Part shown: positions 1,686 through 29,013 of the stretch, in pieces
Layout of the letters: every line of letters starts with the position of its first letter
Numbering within the stretch: position 1 is the stretch's first letter
DNA from: a bacterium
Lineage (GTDB): Bacteria; B130-G9
NCBI GenBank assembly: GCA_035527515.1
Contig: DATLAJ010000037.1
Span: 1 to 49,870 of the forward strand
Reading direction: 5' to 3'
Length of the DNA stretch: 49,870 bases
The notes under the pieces: generated by a model
Told to the model about the DNA's origin: nothing
What the model saw: only the letters and a program-made list of their open reading frames with translations
The model's database searches: none
Program-made: the position numbers and the translations under genes

Positions 1686-2177
1686 TTGGACAGTATAGAC
1701 TTGAAGATCCTCTCGATGCTTCAAGAGGACTGTAAGGTTCCCCAGGTTGAGCTGGCTCGGAGCGTGGGCCTCTCGCCGGCCTCGATCTCGGAGAGGCTAA
1801 AGCGCCTCGAGAGGACAGGGATCATTAAGTCCTACACGGCGATTCTGGACGCTCACGCTCTTGGAATCGACATTACAGCGTTTGTGTTTGTTTTTGTTGA
1901 GCATCCGAGGTTCGAGTCTAAGCTTCTGGAGGAGCTCCGTGCTGTGCCGGAGGTTCTGGAGTGTCACCATGTTACAGGCGATTTCAGCCTTCTCTTGAAA
2001 GTGAGAACCCGAAACATCGAGACGTTTGAACACCTTCTTTTCCATAATATAAACAGGATACCCGGGGTGAGGCAGACCAAAACTACGATCGTGCTGTCTT
2101 CGCCGAAGGAGACGACGCGCATCCCTGTGGACATACCTGCTGAGAGCCCTAACGATGAGAAAGATCAAGGAGTGTAG
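1686..2177 (+). CDS. Lrp/AsnC-family transcriptional regulator
   Basis: A 163-residue feast/famine regulator. The N-terminal winged helix-turn-helix (about residues 1-50: LDLKILSMLQED-like start, LARSVGLSPASISERLKRLE recognition region) is followed by the effector-binding RAM domain (about 65-140, with the VLECHHVTGDFSLLLKVR segment). The start is TTG, chosen because GAGGGTG lies just upstream and the HTH begins at once. It is directly followed by lysine 6-aminotransferase. In actinobacteria an Lrp-type regulator next to this enzyme controls it in response to amino acids, and the same role is inferred here. The C-terminal tail (about 20 residues, charged) is longer than in minimal Lrp proteins. 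Confidence 0.9.
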   Translation: MDSIDLKILSMLQEDCKVPQVELARSVGLSPASISERLKRLERTGIIKSYTAILDAHALGIDITAFVFVFVEHPRFESKLLEELRAVPEVLECHHVTGDFSLLLKVRTRNIETFEHLLFHNINRIPGVRQTKTTIVLSSPKETTRIPVDIPAESPNDEKDQGV

Positions 2178-2181
2178 GAAA

Positions 2182-3510
2182 ATGGCGTTTACAAGGAGCA
2201 TAAAACCGACGGCTGTTCATGAGACGCTTGGCAAGTACATGCTTGTGGATGGGTTCGACCTCGTAATCGATCTTGAGAAGAGCAAGGGGAGCAGGCTTCA
2301 CGATTCACGCTATAATCGCGAGTTTCTGGACATGTTCTCGTTTTTCGCCTCGAATCCACTAGGCATGAACCATCCGGCGCTTCGGGACAAGGATTATTTG
2401 ATGAAGCTAACTAGGGCGGCCGTTCAAAAGCCGTCCAACTCCGACATCTACACTGTCGAGATGGCGGAGTTTGTCGATACGTTCGGTCGAATCGCCATGC
2501 CCAAGCATGCGCGCTACCTGTTTTTCGTCGAGGGTGGCGGCCTGGCGGTTGAGAACGCGCTGAAGGCAGCGTTCGACTGGAAGGTTCGCAAGAATCTCAA
2601 GGCCGGCATTAAGAAGGAGCTGGGCACACAGGTCCTACACTTCCGCGAGGCGTTTCACGGGAGGACCGGCTATACGCTTTCTCTGACCAACACCGACCCG
2701 GTTAAGATTAAGTACTTCCCGAAGTTCGAGTGGCCGCGAGTTGACAATCCCAAGGTTACGTTCCCGCTCGAGGGCGAGAACCTTTCCGCAGTCGAGGCCG
2801 CAGAGGAGCGTGCTCTTTCCCAGATGCACGAGGCGTTCCTGAGGAACGATGGCGACATCGCGGCGATCATCATCGAGCCAATCCAGGGCGAGGGCGGCGA
2901 CAATCACTTCCGCCCAGAGTTCTTGCGGGCGCTCAGGAAAGTCGCTGACGACAACGACGCGATGCTTATTTTCGATGAGATTCAGACCGGACTTGGCCTG
3001 ACCGGCAAGATGTGGTGCTACGAGCACTTCGGCATGGCGCCGGACATTCTTTGTTTTGGCAAGAAAACACAGGTCTGCGGGATCGCTTGCAGCAGCAGGA
3101 TCGATGATGTTCCGGATAACGTATTCCAAGTGGGAAGCCGAATCAACTCCACTTGGGGCGGCAACCTTGTGGACATGGTGCGCTGCCAGAGGTTTCTCGA
3201 GGTGATCGAGGAGGAGAACCTCGTTGAGAATGCGGCCAGAATGGGCGAGAGATTGCTTGATGGCCTCAAGGCGCTTCAGGAGAGATTTCCCGGGACCGTC
3301 CAGAACGCTCGAGGCAGGGGCCTTATGTGTGCTTTCGATCTTTCCGAAACGGCGCTCCGAGATAAGCTCTTCGGCAAAACGTATCAGAATGGTCTGATCC
3401 TGCTGAAGACCGGCGTCCGCGGCATCAGGTTCCGCCCAGCTCTGAACGTTACGCCGGGCGATATAGACGAGGCGCTTCAGAGGCTAGAGGATTCACTGGC
3501 GCATATCTAG
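2182..3510 (+). CDS. lat: L-lysine 6-aminotransferase
   Basis: A 442-residue class III PLP-dependent aminotransferase. It transfers the epsilon-amino group of lysine to 2-oxoglutarate, giving allysine (which cyclises to piperideine-6-carboxylate) and glutamate. Family-specific stretches are clear: MLVDGFDLVIDL (20-31), KPSNSDIYTVEMAEFV (83-98), FFVEGGGLAVENALKAAFDW (114-133), EPIQGEGGDNHFRPEF (232-247) and LIFDEIQTG with D265. PLP-Lys is K294 in CFGKKTQVCG, and INSTWGGNLVDMVR follows. The length fits the family. I chose the ATG at 2182 over the in-frame ATG at 2155 because it does not overlap the regulator and follows AAGGAG. Known roles of the family are lysine catabolism, stress or persistence, and antibiotic precursor supply; which applies here is unknown. 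Confidence 0.93.
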   Translation: MAFTRSIKPTAVHETLGKYMLVDGFDLVIDLEKSKGSRLHDSRYNREFLDMFSFFASNPLGMNHPALRDKDYLMKLTRAAVQKPSNSDIYTVEMAEFVDTFGRIAMPKHARYLFFVEGGGLAVENALKAAFDWKVRKNLKAGIKKELGTQVLHFREAFHGRTGYTLSLTNTDPVKIKYFPKFEWPRVDNPKVTFPLEGENLSAVEAAEERALSQMHEAFLRNDGDIAAIIIEPIQGEGGDNHFRPEFLRALRKVADDNDAMLIFDEIQTGLGLTGKMWCYEHFGMAPDILCFGKKTQVCGIACSSRIDDVPDNVFQVGSRINSTWGGNLVDMVRCQRFLEVIEEENLVENAARMGERLLDGLKALQERFPGTVQNARGRGLMCAFDLSETALRDKLFGKTYQNGLILLKTGVRGIRFRPALNVTPGDIDEALQRLEDSLAHI

Positions 3511-3557
3511 CCGCTCAGGTTGTAGCTCACGCACAAGTACGCTTCGGGCCCTGATGA

Positions 3558-4748
3558 TCAAGTCTGGGGTCTTTGCGCGCCGTATGCGGTTATTCTATTG
3601 TTTGTTAAGGTCGCCGGTTTGAGCTTAGGCAAAACTTGACGCGCTAGGTAGTCATGTACCCCTGCCACCCGCACCTCCTGATCGGTTTGGCCTACTAGGC
3701 GGCGATAACAGGCAGCAAGTATCGAATATTCCTTTGGCAGGCCGTCGCAGTGAGCCTCGTCCCACCTCATATCGGCAAGCATACTATCTAGTTTTTGGAG
3801 TCGGGTTAACAGAGCGTCAAGTGATTGGCGATGTTTGGCCTTTTCCTCGGTATCCTTGCCTGACCGGTTTCTCGTTGTGGCATAGTTCTTGCGGACCTTT
3901 GCCGCTTCGCGCCAGATCTGGCTTCTTTTCGACGCGCTCCTTAGCATGGTTGAGTCTCGTCTCAGCTTCGCCTCGAAGCCAAGCAATTCGCTGTGCACTT
4001 TTGCCAGCTTCTCGAGCTTGTGTTTGTAGTTGAATATCCATCCCTTGTAGTCACTTCCATAGACATTATATGACTTAAACAGCGCATGCCTCTTCGGATG
4101 ATAACAGCCCAATATGAAGAGCCATTCTTCGGGCAGCTCCGCGCGCACAGCGGAAAGCACTTGCCCCATTCTCCTCATGGAGCCAGCACTAGCATATCTA
4201 ACCGTGTGGTCATTCCTATTCAAAAGCCCCCCTATAGCCAGTTTCCCAACCCCGAGCTCCGCAAGCTGGATGCTGCTTTTGACGTATTCCTCCACTGACT
4301 TTCCTTGTGCAACCAGGATCAGTTCAAATCTCCGATCGCCACTCTGATAAACGCTTAAGCCTTTTAGCGCGCTCTCATAGGTTGAGTCCGGGTCCCTGAA
4401 TGTATCAGTCATTATGCCGTAGTCAGCGCGCATTTCTTCATAGGTGCGAAATAAATCAGGATAGGCCGGCCGCGGCTTGTCCGCAAATATCCCGCAATCC
4501 ACTGCTTTCACCACGGCGCTTCTCAACTGAAGGGCCTTCCGGCAGGGCTCAGTTAGACGACACTCGGCATGATCAGTCCGAAGCCAGCAACCGGACTTGT
4601 CACAAGGGAAATCAGCATAGAGCTGTCGAAACCGCGGCGATACTAGAGCATGGGTCATTAGACCAAATCGCACGCCGGGATGATTAACAAAGAAAGTTTT
4701 TATGATGTTCAATGACATCGGCCGGTCAACCACAAAGAAGGGGATCAC
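3558..4748 (-). CDS. DpdA/TGT-like transglycosylase of a putative defence operon
   Basis: A 396-residue protein resembling the tRNA-guanine transglycosylase superfamily, closest by eye to DpdA-type proteins that insert 7-deazaguanines into DNA. Signatures: VRFGLMTHALVSP (26-38), VDCGIF (83-88, where TGT has its DSG-type catalytic Asp), MRADYGIMTD (106-115), ILVAQGKSVEEY (144-155), LAIGGLL (170-176), and GCYHPKRHALFKSYNVYGSDYKG (split around 214-236, with D233 at the site of the second Asp). An N-terminal cysteine set (C49, C54, C63, C69) may bind metal. The C-terminal third is helical and charged. The ATG overlaps the preceding stop (ATGA), showing translational coupling. The substrate, DNA or tRNA, is not shown by sequence. 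Base composition is visibly AT-richer than in flanking genes. Confidence 0.7.
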   Translation of the reverse strand: MIPFFVVDRPMSLNIIKTFFVNHPGVRFGLMTHALVSPRFRQLYADFPCDKSGCWLRTDHAECRLTEPCRKALQLRSAVVKAVDCGIFADKPRPAYPDLFRTYEEMRADYGIMTDTFRDPDSTYESALKGLSVYQSGDRRFELILVAQGKSVEEYVKSSIQLAELGVGKLAIGGLLNRNDHTVRYASAGSMRRMGQVLSAVRAELPEEWLFILGCYHPKRHALFKSYNVYGSDYKGWIFNYKHKLEKLAKVHSELLGFEAKLRRDSTMLRSASKRSQIWREAAKVRKNYATTRNRSGKDTEEKAKHRQSLDALLTRLQKLDSMLADMRWDEAHCDGLPKEYSILAACYRRLVGQTDQEVRVAGVHDYLARQVLPKLKPATLTNNRITAYGAQRPQT

Positions 4749-5737
4749 TGCTCCGGGCCGGAATAAAATAGAGTCTCCCCGGCCTCCTCGGTTCCCCTTC
4801 TTCGCTTCATCGGTATCGGATAGGCCATTTGATATTCTTGATGTCTATTCCACACCTCGTATAAGCCTATAGCCTGCATTTTCGTGCCGACTGGCGCCAG
4901 AACGATATCGGGAGCGATTCCTTGTTCGCGTTCGACAGATTGCCGAAGTCTCTCGATCAGTGCCTCGCACTGAGCGCAGAATGCCTGGGGGTCATAGCTC
5001 GGTAAACTCGCATAGTACACGGAATCCGTGGAAAGCAAGGTGCTATTGTTCTTCTTGGCCGTTTCCAGTATTTTGTTACGAGCCGAATCTTTCTCTCCCG
5101 GATCACCCAGTATTGCGAGTGTACGAATAGGATCGTACCGCTTGAAGAGCGAATATGCTCGAGCTCCCTCATAGCCAAGCGAGATCACAAGAAGTGTAGG
5201 CCGCCAGCCGACAGCCCCTTCGAAGCCTGGCAGCGTGATCACATTTTTCAGACCAATCGCGTACGCATCCTCCGGATATCGATGCCGTCCGACCTTAGTG
5301 TATGCGAGAAATTGGGGCTTTCTAGGAATAAACCGCAGCATCGTGAGGATATATGACCGTGGGAAGGTGGAGATGTCAAAAACCATGGTTCTCACATCTA
5401 GAGTCTGCGCGAGTTTAGTCCATGTATCCAGGTCATCCAAAGTAAGCCGCATTTCATCATACGGGATTGCGCGATCCACCAGGATCTGAAGACCACGTTT
5501 ATGGTTTTCATGAAAGCGCTCTCGAGCGTCCTTATCACGGTCGTCAGACCCTTCTTCCGGCTCTCTGAAATAGACGTCAAAAACAACGAGCATTACCATA
5601 GAAATCGCTTTTGTCTCCGTAAGTCTGGTCAGCCCAGCGATAAATCGTTCCTCAAAGCTCACCGCGGTAAGTAGAAATGAATCGGAGGCCAATCCCGGAC
5701 TAGCGTTTAGTAGCGGGGAAATTCGTCTAGAAGTCAT
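4745..5737 (-). CDS. Unknown operon protein with CARF-like GTK motif
   Basis: A 330-residue protein I cannot assign to a family. The frame is open further upstream, but the ATG at 5737 has GGGGAGG four bases before it and overlaps the SIR2 gene by only 11 bases, so I use that start. It reads as an alpha/beta Rossmann-like protein in two halves. The first has LTAVSFEERFIAGL, MVMLVVFDVYF and VRTMVFDISTFPRSY. The second has LLVISLGYEGARAYSLF, TLAILGDPGEKD and IVLAPVGTKMQAIGLY (G284-T285-K286). The APVGTK segment recalls the GGTK signature of CARF/SAVED ligand-binding domains, so a nucleotide-sensing role is possible but inferred. Stop and next start overlap as ATGA. No signal peptide or membrane segment is visible. 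Confidence 0.6.
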   Translation of the reverse strand: MTSRRISPLLNASPGLASDSFLLTAVSFEERFIAGLTRLTETKAISMVMLVVFDVYFREPEEGSDDRDKDARERFHENHKRGLQILVDRAIPYDEMRLTLDDLDTWTKLAQTLDVRTMVFDISTFPRSYILTMLRFIPRKPQFLAYTKVGRHRYPEDAYAIGLKNVITLPGFEGAVGWRPTLLVISLGYEGARAYSLFKRYDPIRTLAILGDPGEKDSARNKILETAKKNNSTLLSTDSVYYASLPSYDPQAFCAQCEALIERLRQSVEREQGIAPDIVLAPVGTKMQAIGLYEVWNRHQEYQMAYPIPMKRRRGTEEAGETLFYSGPEQ

Positions 5738-8285
5738 CGTCCTCCCCATAGTCAAGCCCGGGTAATTCGTCCGGCTTGGCCTCTGTGGCCGTCTCCTGGA
5801 AAAGCGAATACTGATCATTCTCAGGTCTTCGCTGTCTCGACAAAGCGGATTTGACGAATTCACTTTCTGAAAGCTCAAATATTCTATTCAATAGGCCAGC
5901 ACCAAGAGTTCTGGGGTGTCGATTGGCGTACGAAAGCTGATAATAGGGTGTTAGCATCCTGTGGAGCTTATAGCCGTCATGAGGGATGTGCCGGCGCTGC
6001 TGGGGCTGCCTCGCCCCAAGGGGTGTCTGAAGTAGTCCTACTTCAACACAATAGTTGATTATGGTCTTTATCTTTGGGGATAGGTCTCCAGGATCGCTTA
6101 TGTGGAATTGCGACACAGTCCTGATGTTATCTCGGGAAAACCCCTTTTGTTCCGCGAGATTCTCCAGCTCTTGCCTTGCGCTATGCTCAAACTCCTCGCG
6201 AAACATCCTAGATAATGCGTCGATGAATCGAAGCACCTGCAGAGGATCCTTGGTGTCCAAATAGCCGAGACGGTGTATCGCTGATTTTCTCGAGACAACT
6301 GAACGCTGAATCTGAAAGGAGATCGGTCTGATTCGCACAGCTTTGTTCGCTATATCAGGATAGGCGGCACTCACTGTGTCCTTCAACAGGCTTACGAACG
6401 TGCGGACTATCCCTGAACAAAGATATGGATACCTGCGCCAACCGGAGAAATCCCGGCCCGCGAGTCGGATCTTTTCTTCGTTGCTGGTTCGTTTTCGTTC
6501 TTCAAGCAGTTCATCGACTGTTTCGACGCCACAGCGAGACTGCTGAAGACACTTATCTGCTACTCGCCTTAGGAAATTGAAATATCGCTGCTTATCGTTA
6601 CGACTGTATTTATCTGTGATAACCAGTGTGTAGTCATGCCCAAGGCGGAGCAGTTCGTCGTTTACATCCCTCTTTGGCCATCGCTCATATGTAGAAGCAA
6701 CTTTGTAGGTTATGGGAGCATCACGTGCACGCAGGAAACAATTCACAACGCGTGATTGTGCATCAGTGAGATGCTCCATCTCATCCAGTAGAAAAAAGAT
6801 TTGAGCATTCCCAAATAGCGTGTGCAAATCCCTCAGACGGTTAACAAGTTGATATGGGAAATCAAGGGGCAAACAGGAGGTTATTCTGTCAAGTGATGCC
6901 CGTGCATCATTGAATTCTGCCTCAATTGCTCGGTCGGCACTCTTAAAACAAGTTTTCTCGTTGCCACGTAGAGATGTGATTCGCAGCAAATCTCCTAAGA
7001 GCTCTTGACAAAAGACCATTTCGCGATTCCGGTCAATGTCTAGAAGGTCAAGATCCGATACTAGTCTCAATGTCTGTGTCACCCGCAAAGCCAGAAGCAG
7101 GTTGAAAACGTGGGTGAAATAATCTACCCAAGCCCTGTCCTTTGTATCTCCTGACCCAAGACAGAGTTGAGAGCTAAAATATTTGATCCCACATTTGATG
7201 TAAAAGCCACAGAAACGAGGCCTTTCGCTCTTCTCTCGCTTTTCCGCTAGCTGAACTTCAAGCGAAAGATGTCGAAGAAGCATGGTCTTGCCCGAACCCC
7301 GATGGCCTTCTATGAGTGTATTGCTGGCTTCTGAGCATACTTTAGCATAGTTCGGGGTGTCTATGAAGTACTTCCTGACTTTGTCTATGTCTTCTGGACT
7401 TATTTTATCCGCCTGGAAGAACCGGAATGGATTGTGATCTTCTTGCGGGGGAATGTCAGACGGCACTTCTCTTGGATGGAGCACTTCATGTTCTTGTCTT
7501 GAATATTCGTCAACCTTCTGCACCAATTCACGAAGATATTCTCCCGCGTCGCAATGTACAAAGCAAAAACCGTAACTTCTCCATTCGTTCTCTAGCGTGC
7601 TGTCCTCATCCAACATGACACACGTGATAGGAGCTTGCCATTTCCGATCGTCTCTCAAGCCTTTGATGATTCGACGCATGTTCCCATCTTGAAGACCACA
7701 GCCAACTATGACGACCCGTGATTGCAGGAGTTCGCTTTCGATCACGGTGCTCATTTTGGGGCGTTGCCTCTGGTAATTGTCGTAGTCATCTCGGTTGAGA
7801 ATCATCGCCTTCTCGTCTATTGCGCTGCCGTGCATTTTGATGAGCAGACTCCTTCTCTGGCGTTGCCCTACGTGATCGTCCCTGGACCAGACTTCTATTT
7901 TGTCTCCGAATGCCGTCTCGATGAGTTCGTCATAGTTGGTGGTCACTATCACCGAGATCGGCAGATCAACTAATGACAATGCAAGCGAAGAATCGGCGGA
8001 CTTGGTCTTTTGCTTCAAGTATTGCGCCACATCGTGCTTCGCGGCGCCGGGGCCACAGAAATGGTCATAATGGTCTGCTGCACCCGCCAGGTCGTATTCC
8101 CCGATTCTTGGCGGATCCTTTTTGTTCTTGCGTGCCTCATTAGCAATTTTCTTAAGCAGTAAATCACACAAATCGCGTGTTCCAGGAAGCCCCGCAGCTT
8201 GAGAAAAGCCGGCTCCCAGAAAAAGGAGTCCTCCTTCATTGGCAATGCATCTTATTAGATCTGGGTCATCGAAAATATCCGACAT
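5727..8285 (-). CDS. SIR2-domain and AAA/ORC-like ATPase fusion protein
   Basis: An 852-residue cytoplasmic fusion. Residues about 8-260 form a SIR2-like NADase domain: GAGFS (24-28), TTNYD with N117, KMHGS with H152, and VGCGLQD (194-200). These are the NAD-pocket and catalytic residues seen in anti-phage SIR2 effectors. Residues about 290-700 form a P-loop ATPase with Walker A GHRGSGKT (326-333) and Walker B FFLLDE (496-501), of the ORC/CDC6-like or STAND-like type. The remainder (about 700-852) looks helical or winged-helix and ends in an acidic tail. The ATG follows AGGAAAG and starts 9 bases after the DUF6884-like gene. Such fusions usually act as sensors that deplete NAD+ on infection; here that is inferred from the family. 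Confidence 0.85.
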   Translation of the reverse strand: MSDIFDDPDLIRCIANEGGLLFLGAGFSQAAGLPGTRDLCDLLLKKIANEARKNKKDPPRIGEYDLAGAADHYDHFCGPGAAKHDVAQYLKQKTKSADSSLALSLVDLPISVIVTTNYDELIETAFGDKIEVWSRDDHVGQRQRRSLLIKMHGSAIDEKAMILNRDDYDNYQRQRPKMSTVIESELLQSRVVIVGCGLQDGNMRRIIKGLRDDRKWQAPITCVMLDEDSTLENEWRSYGFCFVHCDAGEYLRELVQKVDEYSRQEHEVLHPREVPSDIPPQEDHNPFRFFQADKISPEDIDKVRKYFIDTPNYAKVCSEASNTLIEGHRGSGKTMLLRHLSLEVQLAEKREKSERPRFCGFYIKCGIKYFSSQLCLGSGDTKDRAWVDYFTHVFNLLLALRVTQTLRLVSDLDLLDIDRNREMVFCQELLGDLLRITSLRGNEKTCFKSADRAIEAEFNDARASLDRITSCLPLDFPYQLVNRLRDLHTLFGNAQIFFLLDEMEHLTDAQSRVVNCFLRARDAPITYKVASTYERWPKRDVNDELLRLGHDYTLVITDKYSRNDKQRYFNFLRRVADKCLQQSRCGVETVDELLEERKRTSNEEKIRLAGRDFSGWRRYPYLCSGIVRTFVSLLKDTVSAAYPDIANKAVRIRPISFQIQRSVVSRKSAIHRLGYLDTKDPLQVLRFIDALSRMFREEFEHSARQELENLAEQKGFSRDNIRTVSQFHISDPGDLSPKIKTIINYCVEVGLLQTPLGARQPQQRRHIPHDGYKLHRMLTPYYQLSYANRHPRTLGAGLLNRIFELSESEFVKSALSRQRRPENDQYSLFQETATEAKPDELPGLDYGEDDDF

Positions 8286-8294
8286 GTCTCTTTC

Positions 8295-8762
8295 CTATTT
8301 TTGGCCGAACGCCAGAGCCCGGAGCCATTGCTTCAGCCCATGCAATCGCTCACCAATCCTCCCATTAGCCGTGGTGATTTCACCCATCTTCGTTACATAT
8401 TCTGCGAGATCGGGCAGTGCCAGCATGTAATCGCGGCCGAGGTTAACGAACACATTGCGGTACAACCTCCCATTAAGAAGCCTGATAAGCTGACCTCGCC
8501 ACAAATTGGCGTTTTCGCTAGCCAGCTTCTTTGACATGCGAAGATCGTAATGCCCTATTCTGTCATCTCCGGAAATGAATCCGTATTTGGCAGACAGAAT
8601 CACGACGTCGACCTTCGGGGCCCCGTTAGCCTCCCTAAAGAATTTGCGAACCACCCTGAATGCGGGTCCGTCATAGAGCTCAATGGCTGGAAGTGGCTCA
8701 GTAGTGTGCTTCTTCCGTTTAGAGCACGACAGTATAAGCAGCGCTGACGCAGTTCTTCTCAC
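8295..8762 (-). CDS. DUF6884-like (YaaA-related) protein
   Basis: A 155-residue protein with the motifs of the DUF6884/YaaA-like group: LSCSKRKK (11-18), ELYDGPAF (28-35), VVILSAKYGFIS (53-64) and YDLRM (72-76). Members are found beside DNA-modification and defence genes, and DpdC of the 7-deazaguanine DNA system is described as a YaaA relative, which would fit the TGT-like gene three positions downstream. The start is GTG at 8762, as no ATG lies before the conserved SCSKRK motif; a GAGG lies about 10 bases upstream. First gene of the four-gene minus-strand operon. Its biochemical role here is inferred from family and neighbours only. Confidence 0.65.
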   Translation of the reverse strand: MRRTASALLILSCSKRKKHTTEPLPAIELYDGPAFRVVRKFFREANGAPKVDVVILSAKYGFISGDDRIGHYDLRMSKKLASENANLWRGQLIRLLNGRLYRNVFVNLGRDYMLALPDLAEYVTKMGEITTANGRIGERLHGLKQWLRALAFGQK

Positions 8763-8811
8763 TCTCGACTAGCCTCGCATAGTCTGTATTCTTCTTGAGC
8801 AAAACACATCT

Positions 8812-8840
8812 ACCGTAAGGGTGGTTCTCAGATCTGTCAA
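8812..8840 (-). promoter_or_regulatory. Likely promoter of the SIR2/TGT-like operon
   Basis: On the minus strand: TTGACA (8840-8835), a 17-bp spacer and TACGGT (8817-8812), about 50 bp before the GTG start at 8762. The -35 is perfect; the -10 matches only at the key TA...T positions. Confidence 0.45.
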
Positions 8841-8908
8841 GAGACAAGGTGCGAAGTGCCATGAACCTAAGCGCATCCCGATGTGGGAATCTCCCCACCG
8901 GATTGTCA

Positions 8909-10039
8909 CTACGAGGTCAGATTGCGGCGCCTGAGCTCCGCAAGCGCTTGCTCCACGCCGTCGGTCGCGGTCTGGTTGGCAACCCAGCTCGTCAGTTCAG
9001 TTATACCGTCCTCGAATGAGACCTTTGGCTCAAAGCCCAGTGAGCTCTTGATCTTGCTTATATCCGCGAAGCAATGTCGTATGTCCCCAGCCCGAAACTT
9101 ATTTACAATCTGCGGCACGAGCCCCTCGACCTTTCCGACCCTGTCGATGAGGATGCTGGCGATATCGAGCACCGAGGTTCCCCTGCCAGTCCCCACGTTA
9201 AATACTTGGTAGTTGGCCTTGTCGCTCTCAAGCGCCAGGAGGTTCGCCTCGGCGATGTCTTGCACGCTGATAAAGTCGCGGCTCTGAAGGCCGTCCTCGA
9301 AGATTATTGGCGAATGATCGTTCAGGATTCGGCTTCCGAAAATGGCGCACACGCCCGTGTAGGGATTGGACAGCGCCTGCCTGGGCCCATAAGCGTTGAA
9401 GTATCGAAGCGCGACGGTCGGTAGCTTGTAGGCAACGCCCGTGCTGATGAACATCTCCTCGTGGTCTCGCTTGGTGATAGCATAGATGGAAGTGGGGGAC
9501 AGCGGCTTCTCCTCGTCTGTCGGCAGCGGCTTTGCGATGGCTCCGCACTTGGGGCAGTGCATCTCCCACTCGCCTCTGGCCAGCTGGTCCTCAGACCGCA
9601 GCTTCGGATGGATCGCTCCGCATCGGGGGCATTCGTACTTGCCCTCGCCATAGATGGACATGGACGACGCCACCAGGACCTTCTCCACCTGATGCCTCTC
9701 ATTTGCGAGAATGTCCAGCAGAACCGCACCGCCCATAGTGTTGATGTCCGTGTAGCGCGCGATCTCGTACATCGACTGCCCAACACCGACCGCGGCCGCC
9801 TCGTGAAATATGACCTGCTTGCCCTTAATCGCGTTGTAAAGGGCATCCCTGTCTCTGACGTCGCCTTTTATGAACTCCGCATCCGAACTGAGATACCCAG
9901 GGACTCTCTGCTCCTCGCCGTGGACCTGCTTCTCGAGGCTGTCATAAACCGTAACCTCATAGCCCGAATCAAGCAGCCTATCTACCAGGTGAGAACCGAT
10001 GAACCCCGCACCACCCGTAACCAAAACCTTCGTTGCCAT
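8909..10039 (-). CDS. NAD-dependent sugar-nucleotide epimerase/dehydratase with zinc-ribbon insert
   Basis: A 376-residue extended short-chain dehydrogenase. The NAD-binding GGAGFIGSH (9-17) begins the Rossmann fold. The catalytic set is S125/S126 in ASSMSIYG and Y186-K190 in YAITK. RYFNAYGPRQ and SRDFISVQDIA are typical of UDP-glucose/GlcNAc 4-epimerases and dTDP-glucose 4,6-dehydratases. Between the catalytic Ser and Tyr lies an inserted zinc ribbon, CPRC (137-140) and CPKC (162-165), absent from ordinary GalE. The start ATG is 3 bases after the MerR gene, so the two are co-transcribed. Likely role: nucleotide-sugar supply for surface polysaccharide or glycoprotein. The exact substrate cannot be read from sequence. 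Confidence 0.85.
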   Translation of the reverse strand: MATKVLVTGGAGFIGSHLVDRLLDSGYEVTVYDSLEKQVHGEEQRVPGYLSSDAEFIKGDVRDRDALYNAIKGKQVIFHEAAAVGVGQSMYEIARYTDINTMGGAVLLDILANERHQVEKVLVASSMSIYGEGKYECPRCGAIHPKLRSEDQLARGEWEMHCPKCGAIAKPLPTDEEKPLSPTSIYAITKRDHEEMFISTGVAYKLPTVALRYFNAYGPRQALSNPYTGVCAIFGSRILNDHSPIIFEDGLQSRDFISVQDIAEANLLALESDKANYQVFNVGTGRGTSVLDIASILIDRVGKVEGLVPQIVNKFRAGDIRHCFADISKIKSSLGFEPKVSFEDGITELTSWVANQTATDGVEQALAELRRRNLTS

Positions 10040-25365: not shown

Positions 25366-26838
25366 TCAGTTGAATAGATCGCTCGAATTGCAGTCGCTGT
25401 TTGGCTTGGCCTTCGGAGCCTTCTTGAATGTTACATTCACGTGCTTTGATGGGGGGTAGTTGACGCCCTTGCCGCCAATGAGCTCCTCGACCGAGAGGAC
25501 CTGGATGCGGGGATAGCGCTTGTTCCAGCCCGGAGAATGATAAAACTCCGCTCTTGCGGCCTCCCTTTGCATGGGCTTTGTGGGCGGCTGCATGGTTATC
25601 AGGACGCCCATCTCGGCATTCTCGCGTTCCATGACGCCCCTCAGGTCCCGAATGTGCGAAACACCTACGTGGCCCGCCTTCACCGAGAAGATTATCTGCT
25701 TTGTCTCGCGGCCCTTGCCCTCGTCGTGGAAGTAGAGTCGCCCGTCTATCCCCTCGTCCGCTCCTTTCTTCTGCTCCGCAGGCCTTGCCCCTACCAGACC
25801 CAACGCCCACCACTGGAACTGATACGGGTCCTGCTTGGCAAGCTCCATCGCCCCAGAAATGGATACTGGCTCGCCAACGATGTCGTAAGTGTCCTTGATC
25901 TTCTCCCCAAATGTGTCTTGAAGACGATGCTTAATAAGCGTCACTGCCAAGTGCGTTACGTCGATCCCGATCCAGCGCCGATTGAGTTTCTGCGCTACAG
26001 TAATGGTCGTCCCGCAGCCACAGAATGGGTCGAGAACAACGTTACACTCGTTGCTGCTGGCTCTGATAATCCGCTCCAGAAGAGCCTCCGGCTTCTGCGT
26101 AGGATAGCCCAAACGCTCCTTCGCCACAGGATGTACGTATGGGATGTCCCATACATCGTGCATAGCCACGCCTTTGCTTGGGTCACGGTCCATTAGCCGG
26201 GTCTTGTCCTGGATAGCGCGGCCTCCCTCTACTTTGCGTTTGAAGGTAGCAATTGCAGTTTTTTCAGAGAATGGTTGCATTAGTTTGTTGTAAACCCAAG
26301 TCCTGGTCTTACTGTACCAGAGCAAAACGTCATGCATTTTTTGAAAGGTCTTCGAGGCAGCGGTCCACCTCCGGTAATGCCAAACGATCTCATTGCGGAA
26401 ATTACGTGTGAATACCGCATCCATGAGCAGCTTCAGGTAGTGGCTTGCCGTGGGGTCGCAGTGCAAATAAATGCTGCCGGTCGGTTTCAGAACCCGATTT
26501 AGCTCCACCAGTCGCGGCGCCATAATGGCGAGGTAGGCCATCATGTCGTTATGGCCGAGCAGCTTTCGGAAGGCCTGCATCGCCTCAGAGACCTTTCCCC
26601 CCGCCTCGACAATGTCCTGATAAGATTCTGCCGCCTCCTCGCCCCAGAACCAGGTGTCATCAAACGCCTTGATCTGAGCCCTCGAGCGAGCCCCATTTCT
26701 CTCGGCGAACAAGACATTGTAATCCTGGTTGCTCTTGAAGGGTGGATCGAGGTAGATGAGATCGACCGACTCATCCTTGATGTGTAGCCTTAAGACCTCC
26801 AGGTTATCTCCGTAGTAAAGGATGTTCTTGTCGGACAT
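25366..26838 (-). CDS. Beta-class DNA methyltransferase with C-terminal restriction-like domain
   Basis: A 490-residue fusion. Motif IV DPPF (31-34) precedes the SAM-binding [10 protein letters not shown] (about 262-271), the order of beta-class N6-adenine/N4-cytosine methyltransferases, with the target-recognition region between (about 150-240). Residues from about 350 form a PD-(D/E)xK-like domain: [12 protein letters not shown], then [20 protein letters not shown] and [14 protein letters not shown]. The expected catalytic acid before K is Ser in FSVKAG, so it may be a degenerate nuclease used for binding. The ATG at 26838 follows GAGG. It sits between rpiB and glyA, genes that are neighbours in Firmicutes. 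Two lines read in its recognition part have 24 and 26 GC of 60, lower than flanking genes, hinting at transfer. Confidence 0.88.
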
Positions 26839-28455: not shown

Positions 28456-29013
28456 CTACGCGTTCAGAAGGTTCATGGCCTCAAGGCGCGTCTTTTCCCT
28501 TTTCTGGAACGCGCCCCGAACAGCGGACGTCGTGGCAACGCTTCCTGACTTGGCGACGCCACGCATCGACATGCAAAGATGCTCCGCCTCGATCACGACT
28601 AAGACACCCAGCGGGTTCAGCCCCTGCATGATCATGTCCGCGAACTCGCTAGTGAGGCGCTCCTGCAACTGCAAGCGCTTGCACAGTGTTTCCAAGACGC
28701 GCACAAGCTTTGAAAGCCCAACGATCGCCCCCTCACGGGGGATGTAGGCGACGTGTGCCTTGCCCAGGAACGGCAAGAGATGATGCTCACACACAGAATA
28801 CAACGGGATGTTCTTCACCATCACCATCTCGTCGTGCTTCGTCTGATAGACTTTGCTCAGCAAATCCCTGGGGTCCTGTCCTATGCCCGAGAATATCTCC
28901 TCGCACATCCGCGCCACCCTGTTCGGCGTCCCAACCAGACCCTCTCGCTCGGTGTCCTCGCCAATGCCCTCAAGTATAAGCCGAACGCCCTGCTCTATCT
29001 TCTTGGGGTCCAT
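28456..29013 (-). CDS. folE: GTP cyclohydrolase I FolE
   Basis: A 185-residue zinc enzyme converting GTP to 7,8-dihydroneopterin triphosphate, the first step of folate and also of queuosine/7-deazaguanine synthesis. Zinc ligands C75 and H78 lie in [10 protein letters not shown] and C147 in [38 protein letters not shown] and [11 protein letters not shown] are family hallmarks. The ATG follows GAGGTG. First gene of the minus-strand run ending in glyA. Making a folate precursor beside the folate-dependent GlyA is a natural pairing. Confidence 0.95.

Follow-up and report, generated by a model that had tools for sequence, protein, structure and literature searches.

A four-gene operon joining a SIR2-ATPase fusion and a CARF6-family protein with a DpdA/DpdC-like pair: a candidate abortive anti-phage system

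Loci that pair an ORC-CDC6-like AAA+ ATPase with a CARF6-family protein are represented by models in Pfam (PF24389, PF24390, PF24391 and PF24408) and PADLOC (CARF6). Besides this core, they commonly contain an effector-like enzyme, encoded beside the ATPase or fused to it, and a DNA-modifying enzyme in the same gene run. The ORC-CDC6 and CE families were probably defined by Burroughs and Aravind in 2020, and CARF probably by Makarova (2020). A SIR2 NADase-type domain with its catalytic motifs is known from ThsA of Thoeris, DSR1/DSR2 and KomC. In the Dpd system, the dpdC domain is given as DUF6884 in a survey of dpd islands (PMC11888242), and DpdB is reported to be dispensable in some clusters. 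A TGT homologue and an ORC/Cdc6 ATPase occur together in BRC (BREX-related capture), a predicted defence system which carries PglZ, DUF6079, HerA/FtsK and DUF4007 and is without DpdC (PMC12839542).

The locus described here lies in the window, by which is meant the whole stretch of DNA that was analysed (49,870 nucleotides). Its four genes, A to D, and the related features are as follows:

Gene A, 8295-8762, minus strand: 155-aa DUF6884/YaaA-like protein of the DpdC family.
Gene B, 5727-8285, minus strand: SIR2 fused to an ORC-CDC6-like AAA+ ATPase.
N-terminal domain of B, 7434..8285, minus strand: SIR2 NADase-type domain, residues 1-284, with motifs GAGFS, TTNYD and KMHGS.
C-terminal domain of B, 5727..7433, minus strand: ORC-CDC6-like AAA+ ATPase, residues 285-852, with Walker A EGHRGSGKT and Walker B FLLDE.
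Gene C (the 'GTK' protein), 4745-5737, minus strand: 330-aa protein of the PADLOC CARF6 family.
Gene D, 3558-4748, minus strand: 396-aa divergent DpdA/TGT-like protein.
TGT core of D, about 4035-4541, minus strand: residues 70-238.
Inserted block, 3520..8908, no strand: region between lat and the epimerase gene, containing only the four-gene operon.
Flanking genes: lat at 2155-3510 and the epimerase gene at 8909-10039, bordering the inserted block.

The four genes form a single minus-strand operon, as in the original prediction, with a gap of 9 bases between A and B and overlaps of 11 bases between B and C and of 4 bases between C and D. In a genome of the same genus (G001:C8), lat and the epimerase gene are 91 bp apart, as compared to 5,389 bp in the window (3520-8908); the block is therefore an insertion which coincides with the operon and entered as one unit. 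It is also AT-richer than its flanks, as had been claimed, with a GC content of 0.499 against 0.568 for the remaining window, and GC3 is likewise lower (0.50-0.59 across the four operon genes, 0.72-0.74 in the flanking genes). The promoter proposed ahead of the operon is no better than chance: a sigma-70 scan of 3400-9000 gave 5 sites for 4.4 expected, none of them upstream of A. Reading frames and domain searches of the block revealed no DNA methyltransferase, the DpdA/DpdC-like pair being present instead. Outside the block, at 25366-26838, the window encodes an N4/N6 DNA methyltransferase that carries an Mrr-like endonuclease domain as a fusion.

The CARF6-family protein, the ORC-CDC6-like ATPase and the ATPase-linked effector of the ORC-CDC6-like/CARF6 loci are all found in the operon; however, its effector is SIR2, and a DpdA/DpdC-like pair is found where those loci have a methyltransferase. 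With the Dpd system it shares the DpdA-like D and the DpdC-like (DUF6884) A. It differs in having the SIR2-ATPase and C instead of DpdB and the DpdD-K restriction genes, none of which is encoded in the block, and in the missing zinc motif of D; the block was rejected as a full Dpd system. B shares its SIR2 domain and catalytic motifs with ThsA, DSR1/DSR2 and KomC but differs in the ORC-CDC6-like ATPase fusion and in its linkage with C, A and D. Its assignment as a DSR or Thoeris homologue was rejected because the similarity is confined to SIR2 (residues about 10-240), and the specific partners and architecture of those systems (ThsB TIR and SLOG; the long DSR C-terminus) were not found in the block or in B. 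The PglZ, DUF6079, HerA/FtsK and DUF4007 genes of BRC are absent from the four-gene block, which has in A the DpdC-like protein that BRC lacks (PMC12839542). The closest relatives of A, and some of the closest of D, are found in two clusters of a different kind (L012 and L124), in which DUF6884-DpdA is accompanied by a UvrD-like helicase and a PD-(D/E)XK nuclease, with neither SIR2 nor the C family.

The core of C and ATPase and its effectors are thus already covered by models of Pfam (ORC-CDC6-like, PRTase-CE, HD-CE) and PADLOC (CARF6), and a TGT is already known from ORC/Cdc6-containing defence in BRC (PMC12839542), so that the description of the operon as new stands for the exact combination and falls for the core. 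In a literature search which lacked key subscription papers, a TGT/DpdC pair was found described neither with SIR2 nor with a CARF6 core and, in line with the original prediction, no system joining SIR2 with a TGT-like enzyme was found.

The SIR2-ATPase effector architecture originally read in B is borne out by its domain matches. The N-terminal domain matches SIR2_2 (PF13289, 2.5e-24) and the ThsA models (2e-24), and ThsA, DSR2 and KomC were matched by sequence in the PDB, while the C-terminal domain matches ORC-CDC6-like PF24389 (1.4e-60); both the SIR2 NADase and the Walker motifs are intact on inspection. Protein A matches DUF6884 (PF21818, 1.1e-14) and YaaA (PF03883, 9e-10) and, in PADLOC, PDC-M57A (2e-11) and DpdC (1e-6), which places the YaaA-related protein of the earlier reading as a DpdC-family partner. 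It also aligns (phmmer 1e-20) with the N-terminal half of a protein in which DUF6884 is fused to DpdA.

Genome searches and plasmids yielded 31 further loci that encode a C-family protein. These came from plasmids of Sinorhizobium, Rhizobium, Bradyrhizobium, Moraxella, Paraburkholderia, Klebsiella and Spirosoma, from Nitrospinae, KSB1 and Acidobacteria (Angelobacter), from one Methanophagales and one Thermococci archaeon, and from genomes of the phyla of G147, G031 and G275. A scan of genome contigs with a four-row CARF6 alignment, one narrow pattern, gave 5 loci only; tblastn of plasmids with C and D gave no match, and viral contigs scanned with C, D and a CARF6 alignment gave nothing. By profile, an ORC-CDC6-like ATPase adjoins or is fused to the C family in 30 of the 31 loci (the match in L104 being marginal), and the sole locus without a detected ATPase, L081, sits at a contig end. 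A DNA methyltransferase occurs in the same gene run in at least 19 loci (the call in L053 being weak), which makes it a common rather than a strictly defining member. The methyltransferases are of N4/N6 (often beside ThyX), C5, D12 and N6_Mtase kinds, and the effector-like modules, present in most loci and exchangeable, comprise PRTase-CE (12), HD-CE (3), calcineurin-like (2), kinase fusions (4) and a TIR fusion (1). Neither a TGT nor a SIR2 in the core operon was found in any of the 31; in L049 a separate SIR2 gene lies a few hundred bases downstream, outside the core operon. Modification may not be obligatory, given that the core is present in L010 and L086 and a recognisable methyltransferase was not found in either.

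Judged by gene content, the C family and the ORC-CDC6-like ATPase are the near-constant core of a putative modular, methylase-linked defence family. The window operon is predicted to be a variant of that family, in which the DpdA/DpdC-like pair would replace the methylase and SIR2 would serve as effector. The proposal of a TGT-like enzyme that labels host DNA as self gains support because a methyltransferase lies beside the same core in so many related loci; by analogy, A and D would most simply be a modification unit.

The reading preferred here, to which we give a probability of roughly 0.5, is that of an abortive anti-phage system which was acquired by horizontal transfer and resembles restriction-modification, with a 7-deazaguanine self mark made by D and A and a SIR2-ATPase response. 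D, with A, would insert a 7-deazaguanine base into host DNA, the two proteins taking the role held by the DNA methyltransferase in related loci. B would be sensor and effector in one chain, with C as regulator; its ATPase, working with C, would engage invading DNA or an infection signal. Where the mark is missing, B would assemble and its SIR2 domain would be switched on, destroying NAD+ and stopping phage growth. We infer that A and D act on DNA, that the trigger depends on the mark and that NAD+ is depleted. The narrower statement, that self is marked by 7-deazaguanine rather than by a methyl group and the mark read out by a SIR2 NADase driven by the ORC-CDC6-like ATPase and its CARF6-family partner, is put forward tentatively, at somewhat less than even odds. 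The exact insertion, the intact SIR2 and Walker motifs, and the recurrent company of core, methyltransferase and effector-like module support the preferred reading; against it stand the single occurrence of the exact combination, the extreme divergence of D and the lack of an encoded DpdB. The genome encodes a housekeeping TGT and QueC, and GTP cyclohydrolase I lies at 28456-29013 of the window; because QueC and GTP cyclohydrolase I are encoded, preQ0 is plausibly available.

The assignment of D as a DpdA/TGT-like enzyme was upheld, with DpdA as the nearer of the two in profile comparison. Matches to curated DpdA models are weak (7e-6 in PADLOC, 2e-5 in NCBIfam); in hhalign, the DpdA profile was matched with a probability of 96.7 (E 3e-10) as compared to 3 for the profile of housekeeping and small TGTs, and the genome's own housekeeping TGT gave a phmmer E of 0.9. 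Residues D84 (in a DCG motif), D115, Q148-G149, G173-G174 and D233 align with the catalytic positions of TGT and DpdA, the active-site places in the TGT family. The CxCxxC...H zinc motif of the DpdA/TGT C-terminus is absent from D in the profile alignment, and a helical region is found in its place. The predicted model is confident in the core only and poor outside it (pLDDT 49). In the PDB it comes closest to 7ui4, the DpdA that inserts preQ0 into DNA (E 4e-7), followed by tRNA TGTs (6e-5), a ranking that is not independent proof since DpdA sequences were in the modelling alignment. In the tree, D forms a very long branch (length 7.3) beside DUF6884-fused DpdAs with a support of 58/99. The grouping with housekeeping TGTs that would have told against the original prediction is not seen in the profiles; in the tree, a joint clade of D and housekeeping TGT is not rejected by the AU test (p 0.195), so that the tree alone is compatible with such a grouping. 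The reading of D as a housekeeping TGT was considered and set aside as the less probable one. Owing to its divergence, missing zinc motif and poorly modelled periphery, D may be inactive or act otherwise.

The same features of D bear on a different role, in which D, with A, would read or erase 7-deazaguanine in phage DNA: a degenerate TGT fold would recognise preQ0-type bases in the DNA of an entering phage, or remove them, upon which the SIR2-ATPase would fire, by a type IV-like logic. D has kept a base-binding and catalytic core while losing the zinc subdomain and gaining a helical C-terminus, and no DpdB accompanies it. Some phages are reported to carry DpdA-made 7-deazaguanine DNA (PMC6884629), and the escape mutants of a known restriction system of type IV, GrwAB, map to phage DpdA (PMC12409362). 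However, the corresponding place in related loci is held by apparently complete methyltransferases, i.e. writers, A resembles DpdC, a modifying enzyme, and D84, D115 and D233 are all retained. This role is considered unlikely, with perhaps one chance in five.

Protein C invites another explanation, in which C, as a CARF-type sensor, would bind a nucleotide second messenger or a metabolite that gates the system, and D and A would act on RNA or a small molecule rather than on DNA. C starts with ATG, preceded closely by GGGGAGG, and carries the signature APVGTKMQ; it matches PADLOC CARF6 PDLC01911 (2.4e-21), and the domain search gave no Pfam match. Residues D122, Y147 and K287 (numbered from the residue before the ATG) are invariant in 15 diverse homologues and resemble a ligand or active site, and the predicted model (pTM 0.77) has two Rossmann-like halves. 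TGT enzymes classically act on tRNA, which also fits a gated system of this kind. Fold searches with C nevertheless gave weak, mixed matches (TM 0.2-0.28), the Csm6 CARF among them, and no convincing CARF match; judged by the model, 'CARF' should be taken for C as the name of its family and not as proof of a fold that binds ligands. Moreover, no cyclase or Cas10 is present in the block, the profile comparison puts D nearer to the DNA-acting DpdA than to tRNA TGT, and the recurrent methyltransferase partner points to DNA. Gating by a nucleotide is accordingly held to be improbable, to about the same degree as the reader or eraser role.

The DpdC/DpdA-like pair also occurs elsewhere without the C core. 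DUF6884 and DpdA are fused in G027 (L002/L012) and in L124, and lie side by side in L118 and in L069, a cluster on a haloarchaeal plasmid; a sequence search with D in 290 genomes gave one other match, a DUF6884-DpdA fusion, again without the C core. On these neighbourhoods the operon is, by prediction, a meeting of two recurrent modules, the DpdC/DpdA-like pair and the effector/ORC-CDC6/CARF6 core; of the joint conservation sought by the original prediction, the separate recurrence of the two halves was found, while the exact four-gene set was seen once. That single occurrence, the divergence of D and the position of A and D at opposite ends of the operon would suit a chance or decaying assembly, in which SIR2-ATPase and C work as an abortive module next to a fortuitous or non-functional A and D, but four intact, tightly coupled reading frames inserted as one block, and the recurrence of the A and D pair elsewhere, make this quite improbable.

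If the preferred reading of a self-marking abortive system is true, 7-deazaguanine marking would have been separated from the restriction genes of Dpd and connected to an abortive NADase switch, and enzymes of the TGT type and DNA methyltransferases would be interchangeable within one defence architecture. The ORC-CDC6/CARF6 loci, including those on conjugative plasmids, would gain a working model in which modification status gates the effector. What is predicted is an immune system in which an unusual base in the DNA distinguishes self from non-self.

Several clusters with DpdA have a gene neighbourhood of their own. In L012:5814-12666, L123:795-5263 and L124:3134-8724, DpdA is accompanied by a helicase of the UvrD/REP type and by a PD-(D/E)XK-like nuclease gene, and these clusters are possibly a separate 7-deazaguanine restriction system. 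The Natronococcus plasmid cluster L069:2957-11803 is Dpd-like, with a helicase, a PLD protein, a TGT, DUF6884 and a second small TGT, and further encodes a BREX-type ATP-binding protein and a queuosine precursor transporter.

Among the CARF6 loci, the methyltransferase or the core repeatedly has ThyX (flavin-dependent thymidylate synthase) as a neighbour (L003, L009, L049, L050, L051, L056, L098 and L103). In the Methanophagales locus, where the methyltransferase is of the C5 kind, an HhH-GPD/EndoIII-type DNA glycosylase directly follows CARF6 (L013:10948-11766), perhaps for the repair of mismatches from 5mC deamination. Two copies of the system are apparently decaying: in L049:1747-7936 the ThyX, methyltransferase and ORC reading frames are split, and in L098:8410-10771 CARF6 is split, with a transposase alongside. 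A conjugative IncF plasmid of Klebsiella pneumoniae carries an operon of N6 methylase, PRTase-CE, ORC-CDC6-like ATPase and CARF6 (L054:2657-7759); CARF6 matches occur in 128 Klebsiella plasmid records, where the gene is annotated as hypothetical.
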